Shown: one piece after another, positions 8,311-32,099 of the stretch
How positions within the stretch are numbered: position 1 is the stretch's first letter
How the letters are laid out: each line of letters begins with the position of its first letter
Assembly (NCBI RefSeq): GCF_002234675.1
Contig: NC_019876.2
Span: 18,793,354 to 18,857,353 of the forward strand
DNA length: 64,000 bases
Direction of reading: 5' to 3'
Origin: Oryzias latipes
Lineage: Eukaryota > Chordata > Actinopteri > Beloniformes > Adrianichthyidae
Notes under the pieces: model-generated
What the model saw: only the letters and a program-made list of their open reading frames with translations
Databases searched by the model: none
Told to the model about the DNA's origin: nothing
Translations under genes and position numbers: made by a program

Positions 8311-8319
8311 AGCTAACCT

Positions 8320-9190
8320 CCATCAACCGTCCCTTCACCTGGAACCCGGTTCAATGAACTCAAGTCCCTGTTTGTGTCAGCTCCCATTCTCATTCAACCC
8401 GACGTCACCAAGCAGTTTATAGTGGAGGTAGACGCCTCAGATTCTGGTGTGGGGGCTGTTTTATCTCAACGTGAGAAGGGCTCAGGTAAACTCAAACCAT
8501 GCGCTTTCTTTTCCGGTAAACTAAGCCCTGCAGGGCAAAACTACAACGTGGGCAACCAGGAGTTATTGGCCATCAAGCTCGCACTGGAATAATGGCGCCA
8601 CTGGCTGGAGGGAGCGGAACAACAATTCATTGTGTGGACTGACCACAAAAAACCTGGCCCATCTTCGTAGTGCCAAGCATCTCAAGATTCACCCCATGTT
8701 TCACATGTCTCAAAATAAGCCTGTCACCGAGAGTCCACTTTGTCCGCCGTCCGCTTCCCCTCCGCCCGCCCGTACCATCGACGGCGCGCCTGCCTTCACC
8801 GTCAGCAGGATTTTGGATGTCCGGCGCCGTGGGCGGGGTGTTCAGTTCCTGGTGGATTGGGAGGGGTATGGTCCAGAGGAACGTTCGTGGATCTCCCGTT
8901 CCCTCATTCTGGACCATACCCCCATCGATGATTTCTACCACGCTCATCCTGACCGTCGCCTTGGACCACCGGGTGGCGGTCGTTGAGGGGGGGTACTGTC
9001 ATGGCGCCACTGTCAGTTACTCTCCCCCTCCCCCGCCTGCTCTGCCTTGGACGAGACCAGCTGTTCCCACTTACCTCATCAACCCTGCAGCCTAAGGAGC
9101 TTCTGGATCATCCTTCGTCGCCAGTTCGTTGTTCCTCCTATGAAAAAATCTCTTCGGTTACTCACCTGGTCGCAGTCCACTGTCCAACAG
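8320..9190 (+). mobile_element. Ty3/Gypsy chromovirus fossil (RNase H, chromodomain, start of 3' LTR)
   Basis: Remains of an LTR retrotransposon on the plus strand. About 8370-8670 encodes the end of reverse transcriptase and the start of RNase H ([15 protein letters not shown] ... [10 protein letters not shown]). About 8785-8985 encodes an integrase-terminal chromodomain ([31 protein letters not shown]). A purine-rich tract (about 8983-8993) and a TG-starting segment from about 8997 look like the junction to a 3' LTR. The element is broken and much of its middle and 5' part is absent, so it is a relic of moderate to old age. Confidence 0.85.
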
Positions 9191-10534: not shown

Positions 10535-13500
10535 TTACTTGAAGGTGATGAGATAATCTGGATAGGCTTGGTCATCATGGAACACAACATACATGTTAGG
10601 ATTGCTCAGATTGTCCACCACGCTGTCATAACGTTCATGGGGTTGTTGAGCATTGCGTGGTGGAGGCACCTTTATGCCACTTTGGCCCTGATCGTAGACG
10701 CCAGTCAGCACCAGAGCTGCAAACATCAGCTGAGAACCGTCAGCACCTGGCTTGGAGTAAGTGCTTTGTGCTGAGTAGGAGGCATTTACAGCAAAGTAGG
10801 TTCCTTCCCCATATGCCGTTGCTGGAACATGGAACAGAAGTCACATTTGTAACTGCATTTGATTTATCCCCCATTTGCTGCTTTGAAAGTTCCAGTTTTG
10901 TGCAGGTTTTGTTAAGAGACTTGCTTTTCTATCCATTACTATTAAACCATGACATGGTTGCAAAAAAACACTGATCATTTTTTACAGTAAGAACTAGAAT
11001 CAATAACAGAATGCATGGATATAAGGACTTTTAAAGGGAGAATTACCATTTTGTCCTGCGAAGCGCCTGTTGAACCCAGTTTTCATGATGGAGTCACAGT
11101 TTTCATGTGTTGTCCCGTGAAAAAGAGTCTTTTCCCCTGCTCCTCCAAGCTTTGCATTCTTATGGGCTATGTGTTTCTTTTGTGCTTCATAGGCCCGTCG
11201 CAGATGAATGTTCTGTAAGCGCTCGATCTAACAGAAAAAATTTGGGACAAAAAGCATCTGGCAACTTAAAATTGTATCAAGAAACAAACTGTTGATTTGA
11301 AAATTATTCAGTTACATGAAAAATGTCTTGATAGTTTCCCAAGAAGCAGTTGTTAAAAGTGGGCAAACAATTATTAAGGAAAAATCAAGTATTTGAGTAA
11401 AAAAGTAAATATAAATCATCATTTTTAAACCTACATGATTGTTATGAAAACCTAAAGATATGTCACAAGGGTTGGCCAGCCTTGGCCCATATTTACATCA
11501 CCTGAGACTTTTTCATGGCATTTTATTAGTTGTTGAACATTGACAAAACATTCAAATCTGCTTACTTAATTATTTATTGAAGTGAAACAAACTGAAATGT
11601 GTATTTTCAAGACAATCAAATATTAGGGGTTGTTTATGATTTAAAAGATTATTTTAACCTAAAAGTTAAATGTAGCATATCTAATCATCTACAAACCAAG
11701 TTTATCATTAGTTATTCATTAAATTGCTGTTAAGATTTAGATTAGATCGTGTTTTTTTTTACTGTTAAATCTTGAAGACTTTATTACAAACTTTATTTTA
11801 ATGTAATTGTATGAGTAGAAGGTCAGAGTTTGATATATGCTCTTGGACAGTCACTAACCTTTTTTACAGTCTGTTTTGCAGTCCTTTTAAAAGCCTCCTT
11901 CACAACCTTGTACTCTGCAGAGGATTGCTTTAGTGGAACCGCTGTAATGGACTCATTTGCAGTCATGCTATCCCAGTATAGAGGAAAGCTAAAGTCTGAA
12001 ATTGATTAAATGAATCAGAAACAAAGGCTCACAAACAAACAAAAACTGGATTACATGTCTAAGTACAACAGCAAGGTATCAAATCATTTGCATGGCATTG
12101 TTTTTATTTTTTGTTTCTCTCACCCATTCGATTTTCAAGACGCTTCAGTTTGGTCTTCTGACCAGTTGCAGTTGCTGTCATCTCCTGCAGATTTACTTGC
12201 CATGTGACATTCTGTGCATCCACTATTCCTTCTGCTATATCCTTCTTTTCCAGATCGTAGTTCGCTACTTTTGGAAGTCTTTGCCAGATGCCGTTTTGGT
12301 CCAAGATGCACCACATTATGCGATTATACAAATCTTCCTCCTCTGTGACTCTCACCTTTATTCTCAATCTGCCTTGCAGACAGGACTGAATCATCAACAT
12401 CAACTGGTTGACTCCATCTTTCAGTCCAGTCACTGTTAGGCCACCTGATGGGTCCTCCTTCATAAATAGACCCTCAGACTCAACCAGCTGCTTAAAGGCC
12501 GTAATGTCTTCCTGGGTGAGGACCTTCATGTCTTCTTTGCTGATGGTTTGAGTGGAACACTGAGCCTCATACAGGCTCTTTAGATTTTTCATGGCAGCAT
12601 CAACTTTATCTCTACCAAGACCAATGAACTTGAAGGTGGACTGCTGACTTCCTGAACTTTTGAAAGTAAGTTTCAAATCTTTGAACTGAGGAGGTGATTG
12701 AGGTTGTACTTGATGCATCAAAGGTGCTGACACAGCTAGAGAAATAAACCACGTCAGTGAAAATCTTCAAGTAAAGGAAACACTTGAAAAATAGAGGAAG
12801 AAGTTACCTCTCTTAATAACAGAGGAAAACATCTGTGTTGCTTCCTCTTTGAACACTAGGAAAACCTTCATCCTAATCAGGACAAGATGGATGCAGGTGA
12901 GTTTGCTAAGATTCCTGGATGACGTTGCAGTTTTGATTCCACGGAGGACTGCACCTGCTACAACACCAGGGTCCAACCCTCCAGCCCCTGCACACATTTC
13001 AATCTCCATGAACTTAAAAATTGTTTTTGATTTCAAACTAAATAAAGCTCACAGACATCAATATACATACCAGCACAGATTGCAGGAATGGCCACAGATT
13101 CAAACCCAGAGTTCTCACATTGATTTATGATGTTGCCTACAAGTTTCTCAATGAGATTTGAATCTTTTTCACCACAAACATGAAAAAACGCTTTACAAGG
13201 GAAGAGCCCAGACTGGGTCACAAAAATGTCTCCACAGTTCACTTTGGCTGCATAAAAAACACACAAAATAGAAATCAGTTGTTGATATGCACTTTCTTGT
13301 TGACAGTGTGGTGTTGTTCTCCTTTCTGACCTGCTTTCAGTTCTGCCTCCACCTGCGGTCCAGCCACTGTTAGGATGTCTTTGCACACCCCCTCTAAGTG
13401 ATGAAAAGATTCATGTGATCGTAGACACCAAAGACTTTATCATTTTCAAAGAGAAACTGTGTCTCCTAGTGTACTGGAGACAATAGGACTAGTCCCACTT

Positions 13501-16500
13501 GATGCACTGCATTTTTACATACCGGTAATGGTCTTCAATAACATTTCCCTTGCAAGTGTTTTTGTATGACATTGGAATGTGTCTGCATAAATCATGCTGA
13601 TGTTGGCAACTACTAGCTGGCTTCCACATGTTTGGGGAAAACACTGCAGTCAGGAGTTTTTAGTTCAAATTCTTTAACTACAATCTGATGGGGGCCTGTT
13701 GATGCTTATGACTGATATGTGACTTTTCATTGGCACCTTAGAAAACGCGAGGGAACATTTTTGTCAGGTATCACTTTACAACTACATGTTAAAATGTGTA
13801 TTTTGCACTTTCAAAAAATATACTTTGAAATTAAACAAAAAACAGAGCAGGCAAAAGATTCAATGGAAAACTCTTGACTGTATATGAGAACTGGAATGAG
13901 TGATTCCTCCCCCATGGCGTTCCAACAGGAAGTACCCACTGACCCCAAGTAGCCAAAATCCCATAGACCTCTATAGAGAAATAAACAGCTATAATCAGTC
14001 ATTCTATTTGTCAGAACAGTCATTCTTGTTGTGAGACCTTTTCTGAACATGTTCTTGTTAATAATATTTGTCATAATACTTCTTTATTGAAAGTCATTCA
14101 AGTTATAATCTGGCCAACCTTTTGCAGCAAGTGTTTGCAGCGTTTGATTGACAGATTCTTCTGAGCCTGCTTTTAAGAGGTAGAGGTGCGGCATTCCAAC
14201 AAGCTAAGTCTGGATTGGTGAAAGTGGTTTCCATGGAAGCATTGACTTGGACCAGGTCAGACCAATCACTGCTTAATGATGAGTTCTGGTTTCAACATGG
14301 CGATGGCCGTATCGCGAAAAAATGGCGACTCAATTGATTTTATTTTGTTGGAGCCAGACACAAGTCATTTTCTGTGGGTGACACCACACTCAATGTAGTT
14401 CTCATTTGCAATCAATGAGAGAAACATAAACCTGCTCTAGATATCTTCAAATACCATTGTGAAAATTGGTGAAGTCTGTTGTGTTCACCACAACGTCTGT
14501 AGTTTCGTTGGTGATGTCCCCAAACACAAGGTGCAGTTGAACCTTTCCTCCCAAAGCCATGATGAATTCATCAAGGTCACTGGTGAGGGACTTGAATATT
14601 GCTGCAAAGAATAGCACCAGTTTGACACATTTTAAACAAGTATTCATTCTGATTAATAAACATTTTACTAAAAAGGTAAACATTTGATAGTTTACCTTTA
14701 CATTACTTATTAAGATCTTGGCAGTTTTACCTTGGTGTATTTCATAAAAGGTTATGAGATCTGATTTACCTTCACCTGCATGATTCATACTTGAGCAGAG
14801 CTTTTTGTGCACCTCATGGTAAGCCTGTCAAAGAAAACAGCAAAAGTAAACATTAGCGATTCTAAATAGTCTGTTTAAATTCTGTAGAGCACTTAAAAGT
14901 GGAACTAAAAGCAAACCTTATCAGAGTCACGATAATCAGGATGGATCACAATGTTGATGCTGTAGAGAGATCCTGAAGTTGCAGATAATCCAAACTCGTT
15001 AATCTTCTCTGTCAGCACTTTAATAGCTTCTATTTGAGGGTACTTTAGAACAATTCCATGTCCAATTATTGGTATGGCAACTGAGCCATATCCTTGCTGT
15101 ACACAGAGGTCAAAACACTTCTGCAGCCCTTTGCTTAGAGCCTACAAGTCAAAGGTGACACACAGTTGCGTTTGAAAATGGGATAATTGCAATAATCATA
15201 TTTGAACAAAAAGATTAATAATAACACACGTTATTGATTGCAAAAAAACAAATGTGTTTTGTGGAAAAAGGAAATTTGTCATCTAGAAAATATGTTTGTC
15301 TTATATGTTCAGATAATAATGATAACCATCCAGACTGACAAAGAGTGTTGTTTTTGACTGTTTATAATGAACTTCCTAGAAGGTTCATTGGCAGCTCCCT
15401 GCTATCAGCTGTAACTTCCTGCTTAATTTCTATGCAATTTGCCTGAACACTGAAGGAAAATTTTCTCTATTTTACCTGCTTATACTAAGATTACCTCCAA
15501 CAGCTGTTTGTGATTAAGCCTTGTACTATTAAAGCAACTATGCAGCAATGATCTAAATTAAAATTCACTGTTTTTTTTCTTTCCATTAATGTTCAGTAAT
15601 TTTCTGTACTGAAAATTACTCTTCAGCTGAATAAATGGAAGCTCAGTCCCTCTAATATGCATCAGTCTGAGCTTCACTGTTTAACATTTGAGTACTTTCA
15701 AGACCCACTCCAACGAAAATTGTGTTTTTGGTGTTTTTAACATGTTCTTGTGGCATTTTTCTCATGATGGAGGACAGAAAATTAAGCTTGTTTATTTATT
15801 AAAAAATAGTGGTGAATTAGGAGCAGACGAAAAATGCAGTTGTAAAAAGTGTAACGCCCAGAACTCAGAGGAGAATTTCTGACAAACTACTGCTGCCCTG
15901 CAGAAACTATGTCAAAAATTCACAGGTTTTTGGGGGGGTTTTGGCTAAATTTTTGGCACAATCATAATTTAAAAACCACTAAGAACAGTATCAAAATAGA
16001 TAAAAAGATGACCAAGTGCTACTTTAATGCTTTTCATATTTCAATTACTGTAAATAGATAGATACTTTATTGATCCCGTGGGAAATTACATGGGAGGCCA
16101 CTGCTCCACACACTCATCAGACAACTCACAAAGATTAAAACAAACATTTAAAAGAATAAATAAATGAATGAATGAATGAATGAATGAATGAATGAATGAA
16201 TGAATGAATGAATGAATGAATGAATGAATGAATGAATGAATAATTAAATAAATAAAAAACAAATAAATAAATAAATAAAAAAGGAATAGAAAAGAGAATA
16301 GTTAAAAAAGGGTAAACAAGAATGGCAGTGTTAACCAGGTAAATGGAATTCTCCATTCTCCCTAATATTATTTTGAGAGGTTTTTCTCTTTATGATTGAA
16401 ATTCACCTGTACACTTTGTCCTCCAACTCCATCCCAAGGCAAGCACTCTATGAAGAAGATCTTGGAGCATCCCAGAGATGGAGGTCCAGGAACCTGAAGA

Positions 16501-19500
16501 ACGTCTCCAGGGTGGAGAACAGAGGTTGCTGCTGCTGAGAACTGAGATTGAAGCGTGCTGCCCGCTTTTCTAAGCAGGGATTTACTGATATTATTTGACG
16601 TCAGCTGATTCGCAACCATGGGAGCCACAATGACATTCACCTGTGACAAAAATGAGAATGTGTGTGAACACAAGTGTTGCAATTTGCCAACGATGTTCAG
16701 CAAGGTAAAAGAAAATGACCCAAACCTGTTCATCCTCCAGACAGCAAAGCCTGATCCTTAGATTTATTTTGTTGGCTGTGGGACTTCCAACGAAGCTCCT
16801 GCTCTGTCTGTTATGGGATGGTCTGTGTGATGTCACATTTGTAGTGCTGCTGCTGCCTAGCTGTTGGGTGTTTACATTTGGGGAGCCCACTTCTTGCTGC
16901 GTCCTGATAAGGACCTCATTGGAATTCTCAACCAAATTTTTGCTAACTTTTCCATCTCCCTGGAAATAACGCAGAGCCCCTGGCCCATTTAAAACTAAAG
17001 AGTCTACTGTAAGGTTGGCTAAAACAGACTGGAGAACCTGATGTTGATCCTTGACTTGCCCCCGGGGACCAGACAGAACCACACATGGATATGGGACGTG
17101 TGAGGTCTCTAATGTGACACTGGTTATTTTCACTCCAATCCTGTTCAAAATTTCCTCAAAGCAGTCCACCAGAGTTGGATCTGGCAGTTTCAGGGTCTCC
17201 TGAGTTGGAGCTTGATTCAACTGATATTCATCAAGTAACCCTTTAAGTTTGATCACTTCTTGTCTGTAGCCAACTAGCTGCACTGTGTTTTTGTCGACAC
17301 CTGGGATGGAGCTGACCTCCACTCTGAGCTCCACAGAGTTGGCCTCATCTTTGGCCTTGTTAAAGACTTTTTTCAGCTCTGGAGTCACAGTGGCAGCTGC
17401 CGGCAGCTGAACATTGATCACAGCGATCTCTCTGAGAAGTGCTGCCTCTGCCTCCTCAAGGGAAACAGAGGACAGACTGGACAGACGCAGGTCAGAATCC
17501 AGCTCCAGGGATACAGGACTTCTAAAACTCTGCTTAAATCGAGCTTTGTACTTGGAGATGGCATTGCTGGTTTTCATGAAGGCAGACAGACATAAAGGGA
17601 GCTGAAGTCTCTTCTCCTTTATCTTTTTGACCATTTCATCCAGCTTTGCAGCTCCTGACTTTACTTTCTCATTAGGACCTTCCAAGATTACCACGTTGGC
17701 ACCTGTAGTGATTTTAACTTCTGGAGAATCAGCTTGCATTTCTCTTTTGAGCTCTTCTTCTATCAGTTGGAGGTGTTTCTCCATGATTGGTAGCTCCATG
17801 GTGGTTGAAAGGGCCTTCTCTAAAACTGAAACCTTCTCTTTCACTTCATCAGTCTCTCCCACCACCACAACATAACCTTTCTCATAGTACACTTGTATAT
17901 CATCAGTCTCATGGGAAAGGTCCTGCAGGACCTTCTTGATTAGTTTAGGTTCAAACACATGATGGCACGTATATTTCTCAGTGAGATCAATGAATATCTT
18001 ATCAACCTGATGCTCCCATTTTTCAGCTCCTCCTGGTCCCTTTGCAACATCTCCTTTCACCACTGCCTCCTCTGATTCAAAATCTAGCGTCACACTGCAG
18101 TCAATAGTAGAGAGCTGCTTCTGTAAAAACTTCAACGCTTGGGGGCAATCTCTCAGGTAAAACAGGAGGAAGGTCTCAAGTTGGAAAATTTTCTCAAGTT
18201 CTTTTGTGTTTGCTTTGGTGAATGTCTGAAAAGAAAAGTGAGCATTTTATTTAGAAATTTTTTTAACATATTTAAATGTTAGTCTGTTATAAAATTGTGT
18301 AGTTGATGCATAGCTGTGACTTGACATAACAAAATTGAAACTTAACTGTAATCATAGCTTAAGGGGATTTGGTCTTCATTTGAACATTGACCTTTTTACT
18401 CAAGATGACCTTTATTAGATAATCAATCTATTTAAGAAAAATTTTATAGTCTTCATTAAATATTTGAAACTTTTTTTGAGGAGAAGATCCACATGTATGT
18501 GTGTCAAAGGTAGAATTTTTAGGTAAAAGCTTAAAGGCAGCTACCTTAACATCTCAGGAAAAATGGCCTATTAATCAGATTTATTGTAAAAATTCTGATT
18601 CCAGGGGAAATATTTTCAAACAGTTAAGTCTGAATCCAAGCTAAGGGGTATTCAGACTACAAAATCTGGACAAAGTCAGTTTAATTTGGTCCAGATCAAG
18701 TCCTGAACCTTGCATTCAGACTGGCATCAATACAAATTGTCATAAAAGCAATTCTGTTTGAGCGACCTGTGGAACCTGAAAGACCATCAGCTACAGTATT
18801 TGGTCCATGAAGTTTTATTTCTTTGATAGAGCTTGTTCGATATGTGAAAAAGCTCATGAAGTCTTTATGCCTTTGTGGCTTAACAGAACTATGGCGGTCA
18901 GTCAGTCTGGCCACAGTGACATGTTATTGCACATTAGAGGGGTTCCGTACAGTGGCCCTGAAGTGCAGATCACACGGACAAATCACTCAATCCAAAATAC
19001 ACTCAAATTTAAGACAACTGAAAAAGCACAAGAATAAAAAAAACATGACATTTTAGAATCAAAATCAAATTCCAGAAATCTAAACATAATAATCAAAAGT
19101 TTCGAAAAACAAAAGTAAAATTTCAGAAATCAAAATGAAATGTTAAAAAACTAAACACAATAAGAAACTGGAAAATTAGGAGATTATATTGAATGATGAC
19201 GTTTGATTTTTGACCTTTGAGTTTTTCAAATGCGTTTTTGTTGTCCAAATACTAATAAAGGTTTTATGAGGAGCAGGGAACTACCTAGCTTTTCTTATTT
19301 CTGTAGAAAAATACTTAAAAAAATTAATACAAATACAAATACAAATAAAATTAATTTCCAGATATTAAAAGGAAATGTTAAACATTAAAACAAGAGGAAA
19401 CTGGAAACAGTAGGTCCTATGGGACATCTCTGAATTTTACTAAGACCGGCAAAGACGCAGCAATTTTTATACATATTCTAAAGCATTTTTAAAGCCATAT

Positions 19501-20261
19501 TAGCTTTAGTTCGGAAAAAGGTAAATTAATTGTGTGTTTTTATGTAGTTTTAAATATGGCTTTATTTTTCTTTGTTTGGTGCCTGCAGAACAAAAGAGAA
19601 AATAATAATTTTATTTCTTGTCATGTTTTCCAAACTGTTATTTAAAAAAATGCCAAGATTTTGGAAAACAAGCCAAGAAACTGTATTATTATTAAACTAT
19701 TATTAATAAATGAGTTTAATGCATTTTAAGATGTGACACAGGGACAATTTTAGGTTTCCACTAAGTCATCTGAATTCCCAAAACCCGTCTTAGCTTGTGA
19801 ATCTGTCAGTACAGTAGCTAATCTCAAACCACAGGAGGTCAAGTAGCAGCTTAACTTTCTTTAAAAAATCTATGCTCACCTGACCATGACTTGTTGATGG
19901 ATGATCTGAAGCCTGTTGGGAGCTGCTTAAGCTCACAGTCAGATGCAGTTCTCCATCAGGAAGACAGATGGTGTGAGACTTTCTTTGCAAAACCCTTTCC
20001 CGATCTTCAGAAGGAGAAAGGTCACTGCAAAGTCTAAAATCTCACAAAAATACTTTTTTTTCCTTTTTTTTGTTGCTGTCTTTGCTTACCTTCTTTTGCC
20101 CTGAAACAGATTTTATACGTATTGTCTCCAATCTTCTGTATCTCGTTACAGTCACCTCCTCCTGAATCCCTTTTTTTTTGAAAATATAGGTGGATCTTTC
20201 CTTTTTCTTTCTTGCTCAGATCCCTGGCTTCAAAAAATAAAGGATGTGGGTATTCATCCAT
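10535..20261 (-). CDS. parp14: PARP14-like mono-ADP-ribosyltransferase, two macro domains, 14 exons
   Basis: Exons from 5': 20090-20261, 19880-20040, 16726-18225, 16407-16640, 14917-15141, 14731-14824, 14455-14601, 13331-13393, 13071-13247, 12808-12987, 12124-12735, 11859-11995, 11047-11227, 10535-10821. All junctions are GT-AG and in frame, giving 1389 aa. Domains: RRM-like N-terminus (1-111); KH-like region in one 1.5-kb exon (112-611); macro domain 1 (about 605-795); macro domain 2 (about 796-984, with GDIT and AICAGAGGLDPGVV); WWE (about 1115-1190, ANYDLEK); PARP catalytic domain (1235-1389). Catalytic His (LFHGT, about 1271), Tyr (GTYFAV, about 1303) and Leu (YLITF, about 1385) form the H-Y-L triad of mono-ADP-ribosyl transferases. 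Human PARP14 has three macro domains; this copy has two. The exon 2 acceptor was chosen because it keeps the frame, but its pyrimidine tract is weak. The protein is expected in nucleus and cytoplasm, acting in interferon signalling and antiviral defence. Confidence 0.9.
13846..14430. repeat. Interspersed repeat-like insert in a PARP14-like intron
   Basis: Most of the intron between exons 7 and 8 is filled by sequence with repeat character (cctcccccatggcg ... catagacctctatag; aacatggcgatggcc ... aatggcgactc). It resembles short non-coding fish DNA elements, but I cannot define termini or a family. Confidence 0.35.
15693..16033 (+). mobile_element. Short non-autonomous element, 'CCCACTCCAA' family, copy 1
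   Basis: It begins tcaagacccactccaacgaaaa and shares its start, a middle motif (aattaggagcagac) and an end region (ctgccctgcagaaac ... aaaccactaagaac) with the copies near 47434, 51694 and (reverse) 57465. It lacks coding capacity. It lies in the intron between exons 4 and 5 of the PARP14-like gene. Confidence 0.6.
16048..16246 (-). repeat. Retroelement tail and (AATG)n microsatellite
   Basis: A short piece (gatagatactttattgatcc ... gggaaatt) typical of a widespread fish repeat is followed by A-rich sequence and about 20 uninterrupted copies of AATG at 16161-16240, then AATA repeats. The repeat supplies the apparent open frame on the minus strand (Ser-Phe-Ile-His repeats), which is not a gene. 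Confidence 0.7.
18641..19790. other. Large PARP14-like intron with AT-rich repeat-like DNA
   Basis: This is part of the intron between exons 2 and 3. About 18650-18800 has a motif block (tttggtccagatcaagtcc ... ttcagactgg) that looks like a decayed inverted-repeat element. About 19060-19400 has short near-repeats (aaatcaaaat, acaaatacaaat). I see no exon. Confidence 0.35.
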
Positions 20262-20270
20262 TTTATCAAA

Positions 20271-20280
20271 GAAAGTGAAA
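20271..20280 (+). promoter_or_regulatory. ISRE core upstream of the PARP14-like gene
   Basis: The bases gaaagtgaaa match the GAAANNGAAA interferon-stimulated response element core exactly and lie 10 bp upstream of the ATG (the gene reads to the left). Function is inferred from the motif and from the known interferon induction of PARP14. Confidence 0.6.
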
Positions 20281-20330
20281 AGAAGAGCTTTCCTTCATCT
20301 GACTGTCCGTGACAGCAACTTGCAATTTTT

Positions 20331-20346
20331 GTTTCACTTTTGTTTC
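20331..20346 (+). promoter_or_regulatory. Second ISRE-like motif upstream of the PARP14-like gene
   Basis: The sequence gtttcacttttgtttc holds two overlapping near-matches to TTTCNNTTTC, about 70 bp upstream of the start codon. With the perfect core at 20271 it makes a compact cluster of possible IRF sites. Confidence 0.5.
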
Positions 20347-20380
20347 TGTGCCACTCCTTCCTCGTCCTGTTGCCGGTAAA

Positions 20381-21410
20381 ACACACCTTAGAGTTCCTTG
20401 CAAGGAAGTGAGCTATTTGTGAATATATCTTTACATGCAGTGTAATTGTTTGAGTCTCAAATGATAATCTGAGTTAAATTAGTGTTTTAACTCAATGTTT
20501 AAATAAGATTCAGAGAAAACATGTCAGAAACACTGCGGGTGACTGTGCCTTTTTCATTGCCACCCGGCCAGCTACTAGTTATGGAACAATATTCCTGCAG
20601 AACTGTGCATGATATCAGACCTTAACAGTTTTAAATGTCAACTAAAAACATACCCTTTTTTTTCCAAATTTTACATTTTCTTTTGTCTTTCATTTTATTG
20701 TAAAGCACTTTGGTCCCCTGAGGGAGTTGTAAAGATCCATATAAGAGCTAAATAAATAAGGCTTCATTCCTTTAATGCAGAGACGCTAGTCTTATTTAGA
20801 ACATTTTCTTAGGTAATTTATTGAATTTCTGCCACTATAGATCAGATAAGACAAATACAGAATTGACATTGTACCAGCCAAAACTAAAAAGAACTGTGTA
20901 AATATTGTCATTGGAATCTGTTGGAACAGAATCTTAAAATAGCAGAATGAAAGCTTCTCAAGTTACAGAACATTACATAACTTCTACAAATTAAAACCAC
21001 CACAGAGGTTTTAATGCATGCTTTTAATTCTAGCAGGTTAGAATGATCTAGTCAGCTAGAATTAAAAGAATTATTTTTATTTTTTTATAGCACGGTCTTC
21101 CGAGCTTGGGTGTGTGTGTGTGTTTTTTTCTAAAATAAAAAAAAAGTTTTTTTATTTTAGAAATGTTTTTATGGTCTTGGGCCACCATATCTATCTGATA
21201 TGATTTACGGTATGAGCCCTCATAGACCTTGAGATCCTTCAGGCTTCATTCAGTTTTTATGGACCTCGCCAGTGGTCCATAGAGTCAGAGACTGTTCATG
21301 TTTTAAAAAGATGGCTCAAGACCTAATTTTTTAATCTGGGTTTTGGCTGAAATTAAGGAATATTCCTATTCGATAGTTATTCTTTTTTATTTTTATTTTT
21401 ACTTATTTGA
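20381..21410 (+). repeat. LINE 3'-end fragments
   Basis: About 20600-20760 ends with the text (taaagcactttgg ... gctaaataaataa) common at 3' ends of fish L2/CR1-type LINEs. About 21175-21345 resembles the C-terminal region of an L2-like reverse transcriptase (GPPYLSD near the start; KKMAQDLIF near the end). Both are short 5'-truncated pieces with broken frames. Between them is AT-rich DNA with a TG run at about 21112. Confidence 0.45.
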
Positions 21411-21416
21411 ATTGAT

Positions 21417-22667
21417 TGTTACGCCCAGGACGTTTTTCTTTGTGTGGTTTTTTGTTTTTGTGTCTTGCAAATGTCAGTGTGCAGGTGCCGGGCTGCGATT
21501 GGTGTGGTGCTCCAGCACCAGGAGTGGATTGGCTGCCTGAAGTCACACCTGGAATCACACCTGCTATAAAAGGAACCAAGAAAAAGACCAAAGGATGCTC
21601 ATTTGACATCTCCCACCTTTGCCTAAAACCAGCTATATGGAGTTTAGGGTTGTAGGAGTGGACTGCCATTTGCTTTGACTCATGGTTTTTCTCATGTTAT
21701 GTTAGGGAGGTAAGTTATTGTCTTTTGGTTTATGTTGTTTTACTAGGTAAGAGTTGGGTTCTTGTTAGGCTCGTCCATTGGGTTTTCTCTGCTCTGCATT
21801 GGTGAGTTCTGGTTGGCAGTTTTTTTTCTTGTGGTGTGAGGACATTATGGATGTTTTTCTTGGTTTTTTTGGCGGCTCCGTCGCTGGACAAACTAGATTA
21901 ATGTACAAAAGCACGTTTGATTCTTATTGCTAACAGCTTTGGCCTTGAAGTCTCTTCCAGCATCCGGAAAACTGAGATTAAGCAGCTGCTGTGCGAGGCC
22001 CTTTTGGAGAGGGGCGTCTTCTCTGCGTCACCTGTTGCTGAGGATGAGGATGGTGATGCTGTGGAGACTAAGGTGGCAGAGGTTGCTGGTGTGTTCGATG
22101 CCAGACAGAAAAAATGAATCGGGTTCTGATTATCATCCTCATATGTCCACCGAGGATCTTCAGTTGACCCTCCGCATTAAAGAAGTGCAAACCCGTCACA
22201 AAGAGCTCGAGGTACAGCATTAGAGTATGGAGTTAATTCAGTCTCAATAATCAGAAATGCACACAACCTGTTTTACAAATATTAAAGCTCTTTGAGTTAG
22301 AGAAAAGATCATGTTGCCACATCACCTCCAGGCACATCTGCCTCTCCTTTGAACGGTTTTGACATCAGTAAATATATACCATTAGTTCCCCTTATTTTGT
22401 GAATCAGAAGTTGACTCTTATTTTGGTGCTTTTGAGTGCATAGCCACTGCATTAAATTGGCCTAAGGAGTGTTGGTCTTTACTGTTGCAGTGTAAACTTG
22501 TTGGTAAAGCCCAAGAAGTCTGCTCTTTATCACTTGACCAAAGTCTAGATTATGAAGTTTTGAAGAAAACTGCAAGCTTATGAACTTGTCCCTGAAGCAT
22601 ATTGACAAAACTTTAGGAATGTAGTAAAAACTGCCAACCAGACATTTGTAGAATTTGCACGAGAAAA
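21417..22667 (+). mobile_element. Ty3/Gypsy fossil, 5' part (possible LTR and gag start)
   Basis: A TG-starting, promoter-like segment from about 21417 may be an LTR. After it, about 21920-22110 encodes a gag-like N-terminal region (LIANSFGLEVSSSIRKTEIKQLLCEALLERGVF) typical of fish Gypsy elements. The element continues at 24818 after a fold-back insertion. It is broken; no full pol is present. Confidence 0.6.
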
Positions 22668-22672
22668 GTATT

Positions 22673-24812
22673 GGTAACACTTTATATTAAGATTCCTTAA
22701 CAAGCTCTGTTAACACATTAACAAGCATTATAAATGAATTTATAGGGTGTTAGTAAGACATTTATTAGTACAATAAGTCTAATAAGGTTTATTAAATTAC
22801 TTAGTTAACACATTTACAAGCATTATTATTAGGATGTTTTTAAGATGCTAATGATGCATTTACTGATATTATAGGTGCTTAACAAATGTGTCAGTGTTAA
22901 TAAGCTTAATAAGATTTATTAACAACCTTTGTTAACAAATTAAGAAGTATTATTATTTTTTGGGGTTTTAGTAAGATATTTATTAACATTATAGACACCT
23001 GACACGAGCCTAAGTGTTCATAAGCTTAATAAGTTTTATTAACTAACTTAACAAATTAATAGGCTTTATTAATGTGTCAGATGCTAGTAAGATATTTATT
23101 AGCATTATAGATGTCTTGCAAATACCTGAAAGTGTTAATAAGATTTATTAACATCTAAAGTCAGACCATTGTCTTCTAAATCCATATTACTAAACTGCTT
23201 ATAAGCTTTACAAATGTATTAATTAACTTTGTTAATAGTTTATTAATTGTTTTGCAGCACCTCATCTAAAGTGTGGACGTTTTTTAGCACAAACAACCAC
23301 AAAGCATAAAGATTGTAAAAAGAACTCTATGACATTAAAACAGACTAAACATACACAAATCGTTCTGTAAAAGATATATAATTTAATTCAGACAAATAAT
23401 TAAAAAAATATATATATATATACTGGTGTTGGATGACTAGCATCATAGCTAATAAGGATAAAGTATTAGCATGATCTATCCTGAGTGAAACATTCATTGC
23501 AAATCCCATCACCAGGAGACAGTTCTCTGCATTCAATGCCAACTTCATTCAACCACTGTTGCCTTGCTTCAAAGTCCACAAGAAAGTTGCACAAGCCAGT
23601 CATTTTTGAAGACCGAAGACAATAAACCTACAGGAGCCATGCTAAAGCTAACACGCTAACGACCGACCGGTACAGAATCAAAGATTGGCGGGGCTTTTTT
23701 CGTCACCTGTGTGAAAGCAAAGTCTAAGAGGCCATTCAATTGGCTGAAAGCGAGCATGCCTGTTTTGCTGATGAGTTTGATTGACAGATTCATTAGCCAA
23801 TGGTGACATTAGTTAACCTGCCCATCTTTATTCATAGATGGGCAGGTTAGCGTGTTAGCTTTAGCATGGTTCCTGTAGGTTTATTGTCTTCGGTCTTCAA
23901 AAATGACTGGCTTGTGCAACTTTCTTGTGGACTTTGAAGCAAGGCAACAGTGGTTGAATGCAGTTGACATAGAATACAGAGAACTGTCTCCTGGTGATGG
24001 GATTTGCAATGAATGTTTCACTCAGGATAGATCATGCTAATACTTTATCCTTATTAGCTATGATGCTTGTCATCCAACACCAGTATATATGGTTTTTTTT
24101 TTTAAATTATTTGTCTGAATTAAATTATATATCTTTTACAGAACGATTTGTGTATGTTTAGTCTGTTTTAATGTCATAGAGTTCTTTTTACAATCTTTAT
24201 GCTTTGTGGTTGTTTGTGCTAAAAAACGTCCACACTTTAGATGAGGTGCTGCAAAACAATTAATAAACTATTAACAAAGTTAATTAATACATTTGTAAAG
24301 CTTATAAGCAGTTTAGTAATATGGATTTAGAAGACAATGGTCTGACTTTAGATGTTAAATCTTATTAACACTTTCAGGTATTTGCAAGACATCTATAATG
24401 CTAATAAATATCTTACTAGCATCTGACACATTAATAAAACCTATTAATTTGTTAAGTTAGTTAACAAAACTTATTAAGCTTATGAACACTTAGGCTCGTG
24501 TCAGGCGTCTATAATGCTAATAAATATCTTACTAGAACCCCAAACAATAATACTTAATTTGTTAACAAAGGTTGTTAATAAATCTTATTAAGCTTATTAA
24601 CAGACATTTGTTAAGCACCTATAATATCAGTAAATGCATCATTAGCATCTTAAAAACATCCTTATAATAATGCTTGTAAATGTGTTAAGTAATTTAATAA
24701 ACCTTTTTAGACTTATTGTACTAATGTCTTACTAACACCCTATAAATTCATTTATAATGCTTGTTAATGTGTTAACAGAGCTTGTTAAGGAATCTTAATA
24801 TAAAGTGTTACC
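22673..24812. mobile_element. 2.14-kb fold-back (long inverted repeat) element
   Basis: The left arm (22673-23660) and right arm (23846-24812) are close inverted copies of about 970-990 bp around a 185-bp spacer that itself contains a short hairpin (gcccatct ... agatgggc). The ends are ggtaacactttatattaag and its complement. The element is flanked by gtatt on both sides (22668-22672 and 24813-24817), a 5-bp target duplication. Much of the arms is built from degenerate TTAATAAG-like subrepeats. No transposase is visible, so it is non-autonomous. It splits the Gypsy fossil, so it is younger than that insertion. Confidence 0.88.
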
Positions 24813-24817
24813 GTATT

Positions 24818-25655
24818 TTATTTGATACTTCCAATCCAAAAGTCTTGAGGATTTAAGAGAACTTATTCTATTGGAGGAGTTTAAGAAATGTTTGCCAGAG
24901 CACATGGTCATTTATTTAAATGAACAGAAGGTGACAGGTCTTATGAAAGCGGCAGTCATGGCAGATGAGTTTATTTTGACTCAAAAATGTTCCTTCCATC
25001 AATAAATTGTAGTTCTAATAACGAACAAAAAACGTCTCCAAAAGCAGCGCGTGAGGGTGTGTCCATGTCTGTTGGTGACAATCAACAATGTTTTTATTGT
25101 CATAAGCCTGGACATCTGGTTGCAACATGCCATATTCTTAGAAACTGACAACAAACTGACTCCTACTGGTGTGGGTTTTGTTAACTCTTTTGGTTGAGAA
25201 AAACTCCATTAAACAAAATCCTGAGACTGACGTTGAACCCAATTTTGTACCATTTAGTTCTCATGGTTATGTATCTTTATATGGGGAGGACAAAGATAAA
25301 GTACCAGTTACTATTGACACCAGTGCTTGTCATTTATGCAGTCAGTCTTGCCATTGTCAGAAGAAACCTCTTGTGGTTCTGACTGGGGTATAAAAATGAG
25401 TTATTTGAGTGCCATTACATGAAGTACATTTACATTCTCCACTGGTTACAGGACGTGTTAAAGTAGCCATTTGCTCAGGGTTACCAATTAGTGGTGTTTC
25501 ATTCATTCTTGGAAATGACTTGGCGGGTGGGCAAGTTTTTCCATTACCAGAAGTTGTTGAAAAACCTGTTGCATCTAGTGCCTTTGCATCTGTGACCGTA
25601 TGTCCTCTTACATGTGCACCCCAAATGGAGACTGTATTTCATAAAGGTTAAAAAT
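24818..25655 (+). mobile_element. Ty3/Gypsy fossil, continued (zinc knuckle and protease region)
   Basis: This continues the fossil interrupted by the fold-back. A CCHC zinc knuckle (CFYCHKPGHLVATC) lies near 25090-25132 and a retropepsin-like region follows at about 25300-25560 (VEVHLHSPLV-like and SFILGNDLAGGQVFP segments). The element is broken, with several interruptions, and reverse transcriptase and integrase are not seen. Age is older than the fold-back element. Confidence 0.65.
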
Positions 25656-26925
25656 GTACAATTAAAAACTTGACAAATTCCATAAAAGAGAAAGTTAAAA
25701 TAGACTCGGACAGTTGGACCGCACTCCAACACTGCATGTGGGCGGCTGCCTCCTGGATCGCCTCAGCCCCACTGCACTGGCGGGTAGCCACAAACACCAC
25801 CAAGGGAGATCTCTGATCCAACTCTCACCAGGAGTACCTGCTCAGGGCCCAAATGCACACAAAAACAAAACACACCACAAACCAAACAGTGATTAAAAGA
25901 AAATACAAAACAGAAGAGGTGCACCTGAGCAGGTCACCACTGATTTATGGGCTGAAAACAGGGGGGTCCCCCTTGCACAATACTAAATATGGCACCCACC
26001 AGCTACCATAAGGATAAAAGAAGGAGGCAGCCACCTTCAGCCAGGTCCAGACACCAAGATACTAAAAATGAGCACAAAACAGTTTAAAAATGGATAAAAG
26101 CAAGGGTGTCAAGCTTGATTAAAACATTAAAAACAATGACTAAAAACACTAAGCAAAACAGCAGTGGCAACTCTGCTGGAAAAAGAAAAATAAGTTAGTT
26201 CTCCCCTGGGACAAACATGTTTTACAAACCCTTATATTACCTCTCATGCCCCAGGGTCAGAACTCATACCACCACCTGTTAATATAAATAGAATTTAAAA
26301 TGTTGCAAACTCAAATGCTTAAAAACTTTAGTAAAAGGACTCAAATGATTAAAAGCTTTCGTAAAACCGGTCCACATGTCAAGCTCACCCACCCAGGCCA
26401 AACCAGGAAACCAGCATCTAGATGGAACTCCCACTGCTGCTATTTATCAGCCTTGTGAGCCAATCACAGCTCAACAGACAGGTGCTGGCCATGAATGTTT
26501 AACTATGGAACACCATGTGGGACAAACCACCACCTAAAGCTCTGTCTGTCACATATCCTCCATGCCAAATGTGTTTCCTGTATGCGCAATTACACACACA
26601 CAGGCTCGTAAGATGGGTGAAACAATAGATTTGTCTGTCTTTTATGGACACTCTTGATGAAAGTGAGACTCTTCACCCCTGAAGCGTGAGTCGACGATTA
26701 AAAGTGAGACTGAGTCAGGTTGTCAGAACGACAATATGATTTTGAATGTTACTGGAGACATGTTGATAACAGCGCAGCAAAATGATAAGATAATGATATT
26801 CTTTGTTACAAAGAATCATATAAATCACGTAATTAACAGCAGCATAAATAGTTGTTAGCGTTTACATCTGGAACCATCTGCTGCTGATTTCTCAAGCTAT
26901 GTTTTAATCTAATAGAAAATTGAAA
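25656..26925. other. Unassigned repeat-like intergenic stretch
   Basis: About 25700-26560 is GC-richer and looks like a retroelement terminal region or other interspersed repeat (ggctgcctcctggatcgcc; a run of A-rich words; gtcacatatcctccatgcc). 26561-26925 is AT-rich and probably includes the 3' UTR of the next gene. I found no coding motif. Confidence 0.35.
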
Positions 26926-26927
26926 CA

Positions 26928-29900
26928 CTAGCTAAAGGTGATGAGGTAGTCCGGGTAGGCTTGGTCATCATGGAACACCACAAACATGCTGGGGTTGTCT
27001 ATTCTGTCCACCAGGCTGTCGTATCGGTTGTGAGGCTCCTCAATGCTCAGAGGTGGAGGCATTCTCATGTCGCTTCGGCCCTGAGTGAAAACGCCTGTCA
27101 GAACTCGGGCCACAAACACGGTTTGAAAACCATCAGCAGCTGGTGTAGAATATCTTGAGTTGGCTGAGTAACTGGCATCTACAGCAAAATAGGTTCCAAG
27201 ACCAAAGGCGGTCGCTGTGAAAAAAGAAGATAGTGTTATCTAAAAAAAAAAAAAAAATCAAAACTACTGAATTAACATTAGGTTTTCAATTGTTATTCAG
27301 GTCCAACACTGTGGTGATATAGATATTTTCATAAAGGAAGCAGAGATATCACGTCAAATATCAAAGAATCACTTTTGCATTGCAAACATCAAATACTGTT
27401 CTTTTTAGTTGTTCACCTTTCAGCATATTTCCCTTCAGGGAGTCGCCACAGCAAATCTGCTTTCACTGATTCCCACAGGCAGTTTGGCAGAGATTTTTCA
27501 CAACGGTTGCCTTTCCTGACACAATCCTATATTTTATCAGGGCTGGGGACCGATACAGGGGTACCCAGACTTGGGCCCCTTTGTGGCTATATAGTTAGGT
27601 AGTAGTGTGAAGGGTCTTACCCAAAGACCCACACTGGATGAAACTTATTAGGCCCCCTGGGATTCAAACCCTGATTTGCCATACGTTACTCCTTCTATTC
27701 TGCTCCCACGTATATAAACCTTTTTAACTAATCCAGCATGTTCTCTAACATTCTAACATATTTCTAAAATTACCAATTACAACACTTTTTGAAAAGATTT
27801 CAAAGGTAAAAATTTTTTACATTTGTGTGGAAACAACAAAAAGGATTAATATATTTCATACTAATACAAACTGTTACATATTTTGTTAAAACTGTATTCT
27901 TTTTAAAAAGATGAAACTTTATTGGTTTACCCAGCTAAGCTACTTTTTAATATTTGGTATTATATATAGAAAACTTAATAAAATTATTAGCTGATCCTCT
28001 GAGTTTAACGGGCTTATAATTAAAGTGATTTGGATTGCAATTAGATTACTATTGTGGAGAGAGAGGTGATGATGTCTGCTTTGAGTTGGTCGCAATTTAA
28101 GTTAACTGAATGAAATGTGGCGGGTACAGTCATCTGGCTGAAACAGACCGTTTCTCCCAGAAAAGCTTCGGTTGAATCCTCCTGTTTTGATGGAGTCAAG
28201 GCTTTCTTGACTTGTCCCGTGGTAAAGAAGTCTTTCTCCTGCTCCACCTTCCAGCCTGTTTTTGTCAGAAATGTGTTTGCTCTTGGCTTCATAAGCACGC
28301 CGCAGATGAATGTTTTGCACGCGAACAATCTAGCAACACAACATAAGGAAAAAAACTGTTTAAAGTAAATGTTTCAAATATTTTTAAAATCCAAATAGTC
28401 CTCTGAATACAATTTAAAATTAATGTAGGATTAATGTAAATTTAGATCATTTTAATACCAAAATGTTATAAATGAACATGGGGGACAGCCACATACCTTC
28501 AAAACAGTCTTTTTTACTGTTTTTCTGAAACGTTTCAGTACTGTGCAGTACTCTGCAGACTGTGGGTCCAGCAGAACTTCTTTCAGATTCTCTCCAGAAG
28601 CCATGCTGTCCCAGTAGAGGGGGAATGTAAAATCTGACAATAAAGGACAGAAGGGCTTTAAAATAAAAAAATGGGTCTGATGATTTTCCCTGTTGAAATA
28701 GTTATTTGTCAACGATGATCTGACCATTTCCAGATCTAAAGAATTATTTTTAATAAAAGAGATGACTTAAAAAAAGGAAAACCTTACACTAACCTCACAA
28801 AGAAAATCAATAGAAAGTAGTAAAGTTATAAAATCTTATTAGAAGATATTAAAATCTAGAAACGATGCATTGTTCTATATTCGCCTTGTACGTTTTTTTC
28901 TTTCTACTTATTACACAAGAATTCAAAAAGGAAAATTAAGCTGAAAAAGTTAAATGTTAGACTTACTTCAAATTGAATGTTATTTATTTATTTTTTGAGT
29001 TTGTGTGTACTGAACTATAGTTCACTTTGATTGCAAACAAACATCTTGTGTCATGTGGAAATGACTCATTTTAGAACAAAACCTGAACAAAATAGAATGT
29101 GATCTTAGCTGACACAAGATGACCAGTCTTATTAAATCCTCATTAAATCTGAAACCAGAACCTATTGAATCTCAACTTTTGTTTCCAAAATAATGATGAA
29201 TGCCAGTCTAACATTTATTGAACATTAAAATAACATCCTTAAAATTGAACCAAAAATGACATCGAAATTTGAGTTTTTTAAGTCTTAAATTAAATTTGTG
29301 CATTGCCAAGAGAATGGACCAAAAGGATTTTGACTCATTTCAATAATGTCCTTATTTCTAGATCATTGCTCTTAAATGAGACAAAAAATTCTCAACTGTG
29401 CTGATTTTGAGAAAAGCTTGTAAAGGTGTAGAGCAAAGAACAGTTAAAACCACTTCAATCCTGGTGAAATATCTTTAACATCTAGAAAAAAGGTTTTAAA
29501 TCTTTGCAAATGTGACATAATTTGCAGTGTAGAGCCATGGCAAACATTGGCGTAAGGTAAGCTGTATGGGTAAAATAAAGAGTTTCATACCATTAACATG
29601 AGGTCATCACTAACCACCAGCATTCTCCCCTATCAAATTCTCCAGTCGTTTCAGCTTTGCTGCTTTTTTTGATGCTCGACTTCTGGCCTCTGTCTTCTGT
29701 AGATTCACAGTCCACTTGATTCCTTTTGCGTCCACTATACCATTTGCAATATTTCCCTTTTCCAAGTCATAATTTTCTGCTTTAGGGAGTCTTTCCCAGC
29801 TCTCATTGGGTGCCAGGAGGCACCAGGCCACACGAAGGTATAAACTGTCTTCTTCTTTAACTCTCAATTCTCTTCTAAGGGGGATGGCGGTGTCGACCAT

Positions 29901-32051
29901 CTGCACCACCTGGCCGACTCCAGCTTTTAACCCGCTTATTATTAGTCCACCCTGGCCTTGCGGGTTCTCTTTAATATACAGCTTCTGCTGTTGGGCCAGT
30001 TTTCTCAAATCCTTCATGCCATCTTCAGTGAGGTCTTTGAGATCCTCATTTGTAAAGATTTTTGTAGAACAGCGATCTTCAAACAAGATGTTTAATTTGG
30101 TCACAGCTTCATCCACACCATCTCTGGTCAACCCCACAAATAGGAAGCTAGACTGTTGATTGGAACCTGTTGCAGGCAAAGGAGGTTGGTGTGAGTTAAT
30201 GAGCTTATGGCAGTCAAAACATGAAAGATGCTGAAATTTACACAACACATATTTAAGGAGAATAAATGTGCTAAAAAGGCCCCACCTTGCTTTTCTCTAA
30301 TGCAGACATGGAACAAACGCTCAACAGCCTCTTTTTCCTTTTTTCCATCAGTGCTGAAATAGTGCAGAGCCCCCGGTCCATCTAAGACCACTATGTCAAA
30401 AATCAGTTTGGCCAAAGCAGATGCAAGAGCGGAATGGGTGTCCTGAACCAGACGACAGGGACCAGACACTGTCACACTCGGGTGAGGAAGACATGTGGCT
30501 TTCATGGATATGTTGCTCGTCTTCAAGCTGATGAGCTCCAAGATGTCATCAAAGCAGTTCACCAGCTCGGGGTGAACAAGGTCAAGCACTTCTTCGATAA
30601 TAATCTCATTTAGCAGATGCTCTCTGAGCTCATTCACATACTTTGTGTAGCCCACCAGCCGTACTTTAACCACTGATGCAGTACCCAGCTCTGAGATGAA
30701 GGAGACCATGACTCTGAGCTCACCACAGTTTACCTCATTCTCAGCTTTGGTGAGGATTTGTTTGATTTTGTCTACATTTGGAAGCACAGCTGCAGCACCT
30801 CGCAGCTTCTCGATCTCCACACTCAGGTCATTTAGTACTGCACCTGTTGCCTCATCAAGGTCACGAGAGCACAAGCTGGACAGAACTACATCTTTCCCCA
30901 CCTCCAGAAACACAGGGTTCTTGAATCTCTGCTGAAAGTCAGTCTGGTACTTGGAGACCACCCTGCTGTTTTTGATGAAGACTATCAAATCCTGAGGAAG
31001 TTTAATTCTCTTGTATAGTTGGTCTTTCATTGGTCCTTCAAAGTTAACAGCTCTTGACTGCACCTCCAGAGACCTAAACTGGATGAGGAAACAATACGAA
31101 GAGTTTAATCAAGACAAATGTTTATATTTAAATACTGTCTTACCTCTCTGTTGACTCGCCCAATAATGTGTGAACAATTGAGGCTGTTACACTGGGACAA
31201 TTTATCTGGAAAAATTGCCACAAAAAAAATATCCAGAAAAGTTTTTATAGAAAGTTAAAACCTAACTTTTCTTAGGGGGAAAAGAAAGGATCAATGAATC
31301 TAGCAGCATCTGCTGGTCAAAGTTGTCACAAAAAATGCAGACAGCTTGTTCCAAATGCAGCAGGTTTATTAGCTCAGCTAAAAGTCCACAAAGCTAAATC
31401 AGAGCCAGGCAGGCAGAGGTTAACAATGAGCATCGGAGCATCAGAGAAACTACGAGAATAGTCAGGATCAAGGCGAGAGTCGGGGCAAGCAAACAGAGTC
31501 AGAAACAAAACAGGGTCAGGAAATCAGACAATCATGTCAGGATATAACACTCAGTAATGCATGCAGGGTGGCACAAACAATACTTCACACTGAGGTAGGC
31601 TCAGTGCGGTGCTTAAGTGTATTGTGAGTGATTGTAATTGAGATGAAATGGAAGTGAAATGGAGATGAAGTGCATTAAAACGCTGGACACGGTTCCCACC
31701 AGTGACCAGAGGGGGAGACAGAGCTCTGACTTCTGATAAAAGTTAATAATGACGATGAGGAAATTGTATTCTTTTTAATCTTGTGAAGACTAAAAACTTG
31801 TGGTTTGTTTTAAAAACATTGATGAATTGTAATTGTGTAGGTTTTAGTTAAAAGTGTGTCTGTGTTTGGGTAAATTCCCAGCCTTGTGTCCACACTTACC
31901 TCTCCAAGAAGAATCCCTTCTTTCCGTCCATCTGCCAGCACTTCTGAAGGGGCTTTATCTCAGCTGTGATCTCAAAAAGTTTTTGTTTGCTTAATTTATA
32001 ACTATTTCTGAATAAATAAAAAAAACTTGTCAAAATGAAGCCGTCTTGCAT
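26928..32051 (-). CDS. parp14-like: Short PARP14-like mono-ADP-ribosyltransferase lacking macro domains
   Basis: Exons from 5': 31900-32051, 31144-31191, 30286-31073, 29615-30166, 28497-28633, 28149-28329, 26928-27214. The phases fit and give 714 aa. Residues 67-330 resemble the second half of the KH-like exon of the neighbouring PARP14-like gene (DGPGALHYF matches NGPGALRYF). A linker plus WWE domain follows (about 440-515, ENYDLEK), then the catalytic domain (560-714). His (LLYHGT, about 596), Tyr (GTYFAV, about 628) and Leu (YLITF, about 710) form the H-Y-L triad. The last three exons have exactly the same lengths (137, 181, 287 bp) as in the neighbour, so the two arose by duplication. No macro domain lies between KH and WWE. 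The first two exons are the weakest part: no homology supports them, and an internal ATG at 31931 is an alternative start. Confidence 0.82.
27400..27700. repeat. Interspersed repeat in an intron of the short PARP14-like gene
   Basis: A segment with text of a common fish repeat (gggagtcgccacagcaaatc ... ctttcctgacacaatcc ... gggattcaaaccctg). The final part resembles a tRNA-like B box, so it may be SINE-related. No gene. Confidence 0.45.
31270..31745. repeat. Repeat-like insert in intron 1 of the short PARP14-like gene
   Basis: A GC-richer, C/G/A-word segment (gcaggtttattagctcag ... ccaggcaggcagaggtt ... gtcaggatcaaggcgag) that resembles the complement of a retroelement terminal region. It has no coding motif, and I could not find its matching other end. 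Confidence 0.35.
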
Positions 32052-32075: not shown

Positions 32076-32087
32076 AGTTTCACTTTC
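32076..32087 (+). promoter_or_regulatory. Perfect ISRE upstream of the short PARP14-like gene
   Basis: The bases agtttcactttc match the AGTTTCNNTTTC consensus fully, 25 bp upstream of the proposed ATG at 32051 (the gene reads left). This supports the 5' end being near 32.1 kb and suggests interferon control. Function is inferred. Confidence 0.65.
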
Positions 32088-32099
32088 TTTTACTTATGG

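Follow-up and report, generated by a model that had tools for sequence, protein, structure and literature searches.

A predicted PARP14-like gene lacking detectable macrodomains beside a two-macrodomain relative in Oryzias latipes

Human PARP14 unites writing, reading and erasing in one chain, and the three roles are hard to separate. The locus described here raises the question of whether a PARP14-like gene can lose its whole macrodomain block and remain a working gene. The window analysed is a 64,000 nt stretch of Oryzias latipes DNA (NC_019876.2, 18,793,354–18,857,353), which is C18:18793354-18857353 in the genome searched (734 Mb in 25 contigs); all positions are window coordinates unless a contig is named. 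It contains two PARP14-like genes in tandem on the minus strand, termed A and B. On balance we lean towards B being an old, compacted tandem paralogue of A and a conserved, predicted interferon-inducible mono-ADP-ribosyltransferase that carries neither reader nor eraser. The findings made on B directly are an intact frame, A as its closest relative, no macro exons found, homology in the ADP-ribosyltransferase (ART) domain, an interferon-stimulated response element (ISRE) at the 5' end and two predicted models compatible with a KH fold. Papers are cited by PMC number, in each case for a part of their text.

Both gene models were made with hand-placed GT..AG junctions and phase control. Gene B has six exons (32051–26928) and its spliced translation is 698 aa with a terminal stop only. 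The phases agree at all five introns.

31900..32051, minus strand: gene B exon 1, 152 bp, as proposed in a preliminary description of this DNA
30286..31073, minus strand: gene B exon 2, 788 bp, three KH-like units as read here and the first part of the split KH
30167..30285, minus strand: gene B intron 2, 119 bp, located where A carries 444 aa (linkers and two macrodomains)
29615..30166, minus strand: gene B exon 3, 552 bp, remainder of the split KH, the last KH (KH8-like) and the WWE-like region
28497..28633, minus strand: gene B exon 4, 137 bp, start of the ART region, 52% amino acid (aa) identity to A exon 12
28149..28329, minus strand: gene B exon 5, 181 bp, ART with the catalytic His, 63% aa identity to A exon 13
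26928..27214, minus strand: gene B exon 6, 287 bp, 3' half of the ART, stop TAG, 67% aa identity to A exon 14

An alternative donor would make exon 3 shorter by 3 bp. Exon 1, which has both in-frame ATGs (32051 and 31931), is weakly supported; no second genomic copy of it was found and it shows no homology to A. Gene A has 14 exons (20261–10535) and encodes 1376 aa, also with a terminal stop only in the spliced translation.

20261-20090 and 20040-19880, minus strand: gene A exons 1-2, RRM_PARP14_1
16726..18225, minus strand: gene A exon 3, 1500 bp, encodes KH-like units, the first part of the split KH, a linker and the beginning of the first macrodomain
16640-16407, 15141-14917 and 14824-14770, minus strand: gene A exons 4-6, most of the first macrodomain, MD2/PARP9-like (MD, macrodomain)
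14601-14455, 13393-13331, 13247-13071 and 12987-12808, minus strand: gene A exons 7-10, second macrodomain, MD3-like
12124..12735, minus strand: gene A exon 11, 612 bp, second half of the KH, KH8-like, WWE-like
11859..11995, minus strand: gene A exon 12, 137 bp
11047..11227, minus strand: gene A exon 13, 181 bp, ART
10535..10821, minus strand: gene A exon 14, 287 bp, ART, stop TAA

Intron 1 of A (20041–20089) is only 49 bp in the single in-frame model built, so the N-terminus of A is uncertain. An intron of 49 bp is shorter than usual in vertebrates.

In A and B alike the final three coding exons measure 137, 181 and 287 bp, as the preliminary description had stated. This match is specific to A and B as against the PARP14 gene of contig C9, where the final exons, counted from the sequence, are 143, 175 and 281 bp. 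Amino acid identity between A and B by tblastn is 41% in the KH exon and 46% in the KH/WWE exon, followed by the 52, 63 and 67% of the ART exons. The homology of B begins inside A exon 3, which means that B is without the RRM and the first KH units. The 444 residues of A stand between the two halves of one KH, and none of them is present in B. Above the cut-off, Pfam gives one RRM_PARP14_1, two macro stretches and PARP in A, and PARP only in B, with no macro and no RRM. Two macrodomains in A and none in B is also what had been described.

A search of the B locus (26.8–33.5 kb) with 12 macro queries, six from A and six from C9, gave no match better than E = 0.37, and the presence of macro exons hidden in B introns was rejected on this result. 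As a control, four of the six C9 queries (MD2a, MD2b, MD3a and MD3b) match the macro exons of A at 5e-10 to 1.4e-5. The search for remnants is not fully sensitive, because the C9 MD1 query and the last MD3 piece (MD3c) miss the A macro exons at E 0.1. A match of query m2 at 62.06 kb (E 0.005) was rejected as a macro remnant and taken as chance; it is 38 residues long, lies on the plus strand and has a stop inside. The loss of macro exons between the KH-like region and WWE, as put forward in the preliminary description, agrees with the 119-bp intron and with the absence of macro matches, but the loss was understated, as the RRM and the first KH units are also gone. That description had also named the splicing of macro exons into B as an outcome that would overturn it; as judged from the DNA, such splicing appears close to excluded.

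The block missing from B is the one that interrupts a KH domain in PARP14, and for this reason the split KH of B may be whole again. Two B units have predicted models that are compatible with the KH fold, and none passes the Pfam cut-off. Pfam analysis of three pieces of B gave one match, KH_PARP14_8 at E 0.069, below the cut-off. When the rejoined KH was compared by profile with the KH before it, the result was P 0.035 in the wrong register. The label WWE is weakly supported. A WWE domain had been assigned to both genes; in A there is a WWE_1 match at E 0.031, below the cut-off, and in B no WWE match by Pfam. Alignment of the WWE-like region with the WWE of the C9 and C21 genes by hhalign yields P 0.022 and a probability of 2%, and the WWE exon of B has no matches to solved structures up to E 1.

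In the ART domain, PF00644 scores 80 bits in A and 71.6 bits in B, with a cut-off of 26.7. The best solved-structure match of the B ART is PARP15 at 1e-47, with PARP12 at 1.6e-25, and the search places it with the PARP14/15/10 kind. A and B are each other's closest sequences. Their identity is only 65% in the ART core and 50% over shared codons, so the pair appears to be old. The ART cores of A and B are 43–50% identical to PARP10, PARP14 and PARP15 sequences and to the C21 gene, with values of 50% (A) and 48% (B) for C21, and of 45–48% for B and two PARP10s. The catalytic H (in HGT) and Y (in GTYFA) are conserved in both genes. The third position was placed in the alignment via PARP15 L659, with a length of PARP15 that we take to be 678 aa, and the residue aligned to it is Met in A, B, C9 and C21. 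The PARP1 residue homologous to L659 of PARP15 is the catalytic glutamate (PMC12572374). Since this residue is Met in both copies, the predicted triad is H-Y-M, still of the hydrophobic mono-ART kind. The H-Y-L residues reported earlier are correct in the first two positions but not in the third, and the Leu in question was probably the one in YLITF.

Phylogenetic trees of the catalytic domain, which had been proposed as a check, are in line with these identities. Five maximum-likelihood runs were made on three alignments, and LG+G4 was chosen each time; the trees are small and unrooted. The C21 gene is present only in the four runs of the later tree set, and a partial C13 sequence was dropped in some. 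A and B are split from the rest with Shimodaira-Hasegawa-like approximate likelihood-ratio (SH-aLRT) values of 93–96 and bootstrap values of 79–91. A clade of C9, human PARP14 and PARP15, with C21 where included, excludes A and B (SH-aLRT 87–94, bootstrap 56–88; the bootstrap is 56 and 60 after the partial C13 row is dropped). Human PARP10 groups with the C11 gene in a separate clade (SH-aLRT 96–98, bootstrap 97–99). B pairs with A and is a paralogue of it by both sequence and tree. Assignment of B to PARP10 was rejected, as B is outside the PARP10 clade and shows no match to the ubiquitin-interacting motifs (UIMs) at E 1. The A/B pair may represent an old PARP14-like lineage or else one that evolves fast.

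The typing of the A macrodomains is based on solved-structure scores. The second macrodomain matches PARP15 3v2b (1.3e-18) and PARP14 4abk (3e-17) best, and PARP14 3q6z (2.9e-4) is the lowest among the PARP14 entries. We take 4abk to be MD3 and 3q6z to be MD1 of PARP14. Scores against the two domains of entry 3vfq are 20.8 bits for the first and 35.0 bits for the second. The first macrodomain has a weak match to PARP9 (3.6e-8). The NAANEDL..GG loop of the C9 MD1 is seen by eye in neither. The macrodomains of A thus look MD3-like and MD2/PARP9-like, and none looks MD1-like. Against this typing, a query with the whole of A matches C9 MD1 (A 803–947, 30%, E 9.4e-6), a match that arises because MD1 lies in a single exon at C9. 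MD1 is a hydrolase and MD2 and MD3 are not (PMC10499325, PMC10221186), from which it follows that A probably carries readers at most and no eraser. The eraser-type domain seems to have been already absent from the A/B pair. A had been presented as the full PARP14 with its eraser. This view is not supported: PARP14 has three macrodomains including an MD1-type hydrolase, and A has two, neither MD1-like, with none found in B.

Three-macrodomain genes are present on C9. A PARP14 gene with an MD1-like domain is found at C9 ~30857–30875 kb on the minus strand. A second three-macrodomain PARP14 at ~30922–30937 kb is on the plus strand, inverted relative to the first, and its MD1 is 99% identical; its last ART exon is not seen and a stretch of N follows. 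A PARP14-like gene at C21 3571–3583 kb has MD2- and MD3-like domains, with no MD1 seen in the 29.8 kb fetched. Given the C21 gene, MD1 may have been lost more than once in this genome. Among the best candidates scored, at least five PARP14-like genes are present, four with macrodomains and B without.

Comparison of A and B over 632 shared codons gives a nonsynonymous divergence (dN) of 0.39 and a synonymous divergence (dS) of 1.65, which is near saturation. In 196 ART codons, the changes by codon position are 20/13/31 for those specific to B and 13/17/33 for those specific to A. When neutral changes were simulated in a simple way, one of 300 frames stayed stop-free at 0.05 changes per site, and none of 300 did at each of 0.1, 0.2, 0.4 and 0.8. 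Both genes have ISRE-like sequences near the predicted start.

32076..32091: ISRE, AGTTTCACTTTCTTTT as read on the plus strand, which fits AGTTTCNNTTTCNY, 25 bp upstream of the first ATG of B
20271..20280: ISRE core GAAAGTGAAA, 10 bp upstream of the start codon of gene A

The element of B reads AGTTTCACTTTC at 32076, and its promoter position is assumed from the exon 1 proposed earlier. Scoring was by the standard ISRE consensus. The strict motif is expected 0.003 times per kb, and two are present in the window, the other at 62201. The core at gene A is weak because 12 such cores are in the window and ~8 are expected. In salmonid cells interferon induces a parp14 gene (PMC6612602), and in sole infected with virus parp14 is up-regulated (PMC8875540), whichever paralogue is meant. 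B is probably a real gene and interferon-driven, as far as can be read from its sequence.

The strongest competitor is that B is a truncated tandem copy, unexpressed or lately non-functional, with a frame that is open by accident. Several features point this way and weigh against a working gene: B is without the 5' half and first exons of A, a 413-bp interspersed repeat is present in intron 1 (31324..31736), and the exon 5 donor, ACG|GTCTGT, is weak, with a value of 3.4 on rough home-made weights. The same value is also found at A introns 5 and 7. However, 698 codons are open despite the near-saturated synonymous divergence, the excess of third-position changes is present in B as in A, an ISRE is at the 5' end and the phases are consistent at all five introns. 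The preliminary description had named an unexpressed pseudogene as another outcome that would overturn it; the open frame, the divergence and the ISRE make this unlikely, but it retains more weight than any other competitor. The intron 1 repeat itself is found at 39 other places at 75–85% identity, among 40 scored of 2032 candidates.

If B is a functional mono-ART, as we prefer, its layout would run from KH-like units through a rejoined KH, the last KH and a WWE-like region to the ART. Interferon would switch on transcription of B from a promoter of its own. The KH units would bring the ART to RNA or RNA-bound proteins, where B would attach mono-ADP-ribose without itself being able to bind or remove it. 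These marks would have to be read and erased in trans, e.g., by the three-macrodomain PARP14 genes of C9. For human PARP14, RNA binding is seen with KH8-WWE-ART but not with WWE-ART; the latter modifies phosphorylated RNA ends (PMC10450202). The earlier suggestion that B writes without its own reader is a fair one by architecture, with B predicted to be macro-less and its ART of the PARP14/15/10 kind. The further suggestion of an escape from viral macrodomains does not follow, because viral macrodomains act on the ADP-ribosylated product and loss of the host domain would not itself evade them; e.g., Mac1 reverses PARP14 marks (PMC10499325). Such escape as a direct consequence of host macrodomain loss was rejected.

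B could instead act chiefly through its ART as a partner or competitor of A in a heterodimer, and not as an independent writer. PARP15 activity needs ART dimerisation (PMC12572374) and the ART cores of A and B are 65% identical, but about a third of the core positions differ between them, and we consider this role quite improbable.

An independent writer that has lost its macrodomains leads to a broader proposal. The macro block may have been deleted from the split-KH loop together with its linkers, which would make the KH contiguous again. The PARP14-like macro block would then be a removable insert in a KH loop, and B a clean natural removal with the KH restored, leaving an interferon-induced, RNA-directed writer. 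This is tentative, and is held with clearly less confidence than the preferred reading of B as an interferon-inducible mono-ART. If it is true, a PARP14-like protein can tolerate loss of the macro block as one unit, which would support the published split-KH view.

The reverse direction of change has also to be considered, i.e., that B retains an ancestral macro-less state of a PARP10-like lineage and that A gained macrodomains later or by exchange with PARP14. In its favour, the ART trees put A and B outside the PARP14/PARP15 clade, a WWE precedes the ART in zebrafish PARP10 (PMC4245714), and no macro match is present at the C11 PARP10 locus. However, the macrodomains of A are at the same split-KH point and of the same PARP14-like types as in the C9 and C21 genes, and the B ART is 65% identical to A as compared with 45–48% to the two PARP10s; an ancestral state of B is very unlikely. 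Least likely of all is that the gene model or assembly is incomplete, with B part of a longer gene or its macro exons lost by assembly collapse: exon 1 is weakly supported and the evidence is from genome sequence alone, but no N occurs in the window, two conserved exons are joined in phase across the 119-bp intron, and no further convincing PARP14-like match is found in the window or, with E up to 1, in the ~9.9 kb that flank it on each side.

Loss of the macrodomains, the course preferred here, gives B a combination of features that differs from each known relative. PARP14, of an interferon-inducible family, shares the ART and KH-like units with A and B and has its macro block at the same point as A. 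Compared with the C9 genes and their three macrodomains, B is without macrodomain and RRM and has fewer KH units. A has two macrodomains, neither of them MD1-like, and both A and B fall outside the C9/human PARP14–PARP15 clade with moderate support. PARP15, the best structure match of the B ART, is like B a shortened PARP14-like duplicate with an ART; however, it kept macrodomains 2 and 3 and is without RNA-binding domains (PMC4038475, PMC10450202), and B is the reverse. PARP10 resembles B as a macro-less mono-ART with KH units, and in zebrafish and chicken it has a WWE before the ART (PMC4245714), but PARP10 has UIMs in its split KH (PMC10450202) and B has no UIM match (E 1). PARP11, PARP7 and PARP12 also have a WWE-like region followed by an ART and no macrodomain, but no zinc-finger match is found in B and their ART is far more distant (PARP12 1.6e-25 compared with PARP15 1e-47). 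The C21 gene is like A in having MD2- and MD3-like macrodomains with no MD1 seen; unlike A and B, it joins the PARP14 clade.

Partial PARP14 duplicates and the turnover of PARP14-like genes in fish are already known, and in this general form the finding is not new. One macrodomain has been lost from PARP15 in elephant and manatee and many fish have extra PARP14 copies (PMC4038475), and PARP14-like copies are often close together (PMC4245714). A PARP14-like copy with KH units and ART in which the whole macro block is lost was not found in the literature, as judged by titles, abstract starts and passages, and no literature on parp14rs1 was found. If the reading of B as a writer is right, B beside A (with reader-like macrodomains only) and a complete PARP14 on C9 would offer a ready comparison in a fish that is amenable to gene removal.

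Other features are present in the window. A palindrome of ~2.1 kb at 22673–24812, between A and B, matches its own reverse complement at 91.8% and resembles a large foldback element. Pieces of hAT/ZBED-like transposase and a gypsy-like piece of reverse transcriptase/RNaseH are recognised by eye at 4947–6191 and 8317–8589 on the plus strand. At 60795–61019 on the minus strand, an open frame resembles by eye an exon of a TRMT10-type tRNA methyltransferase. Two near-identical pairs of open frames ~3.6 kb apart, 39751–39984/43374–43607 and 40725–40949/44359–44583, represent a recent tandem duplication, and a GAAANNGAAA core is present ~160 bp before the first frame of each duplicated copy.

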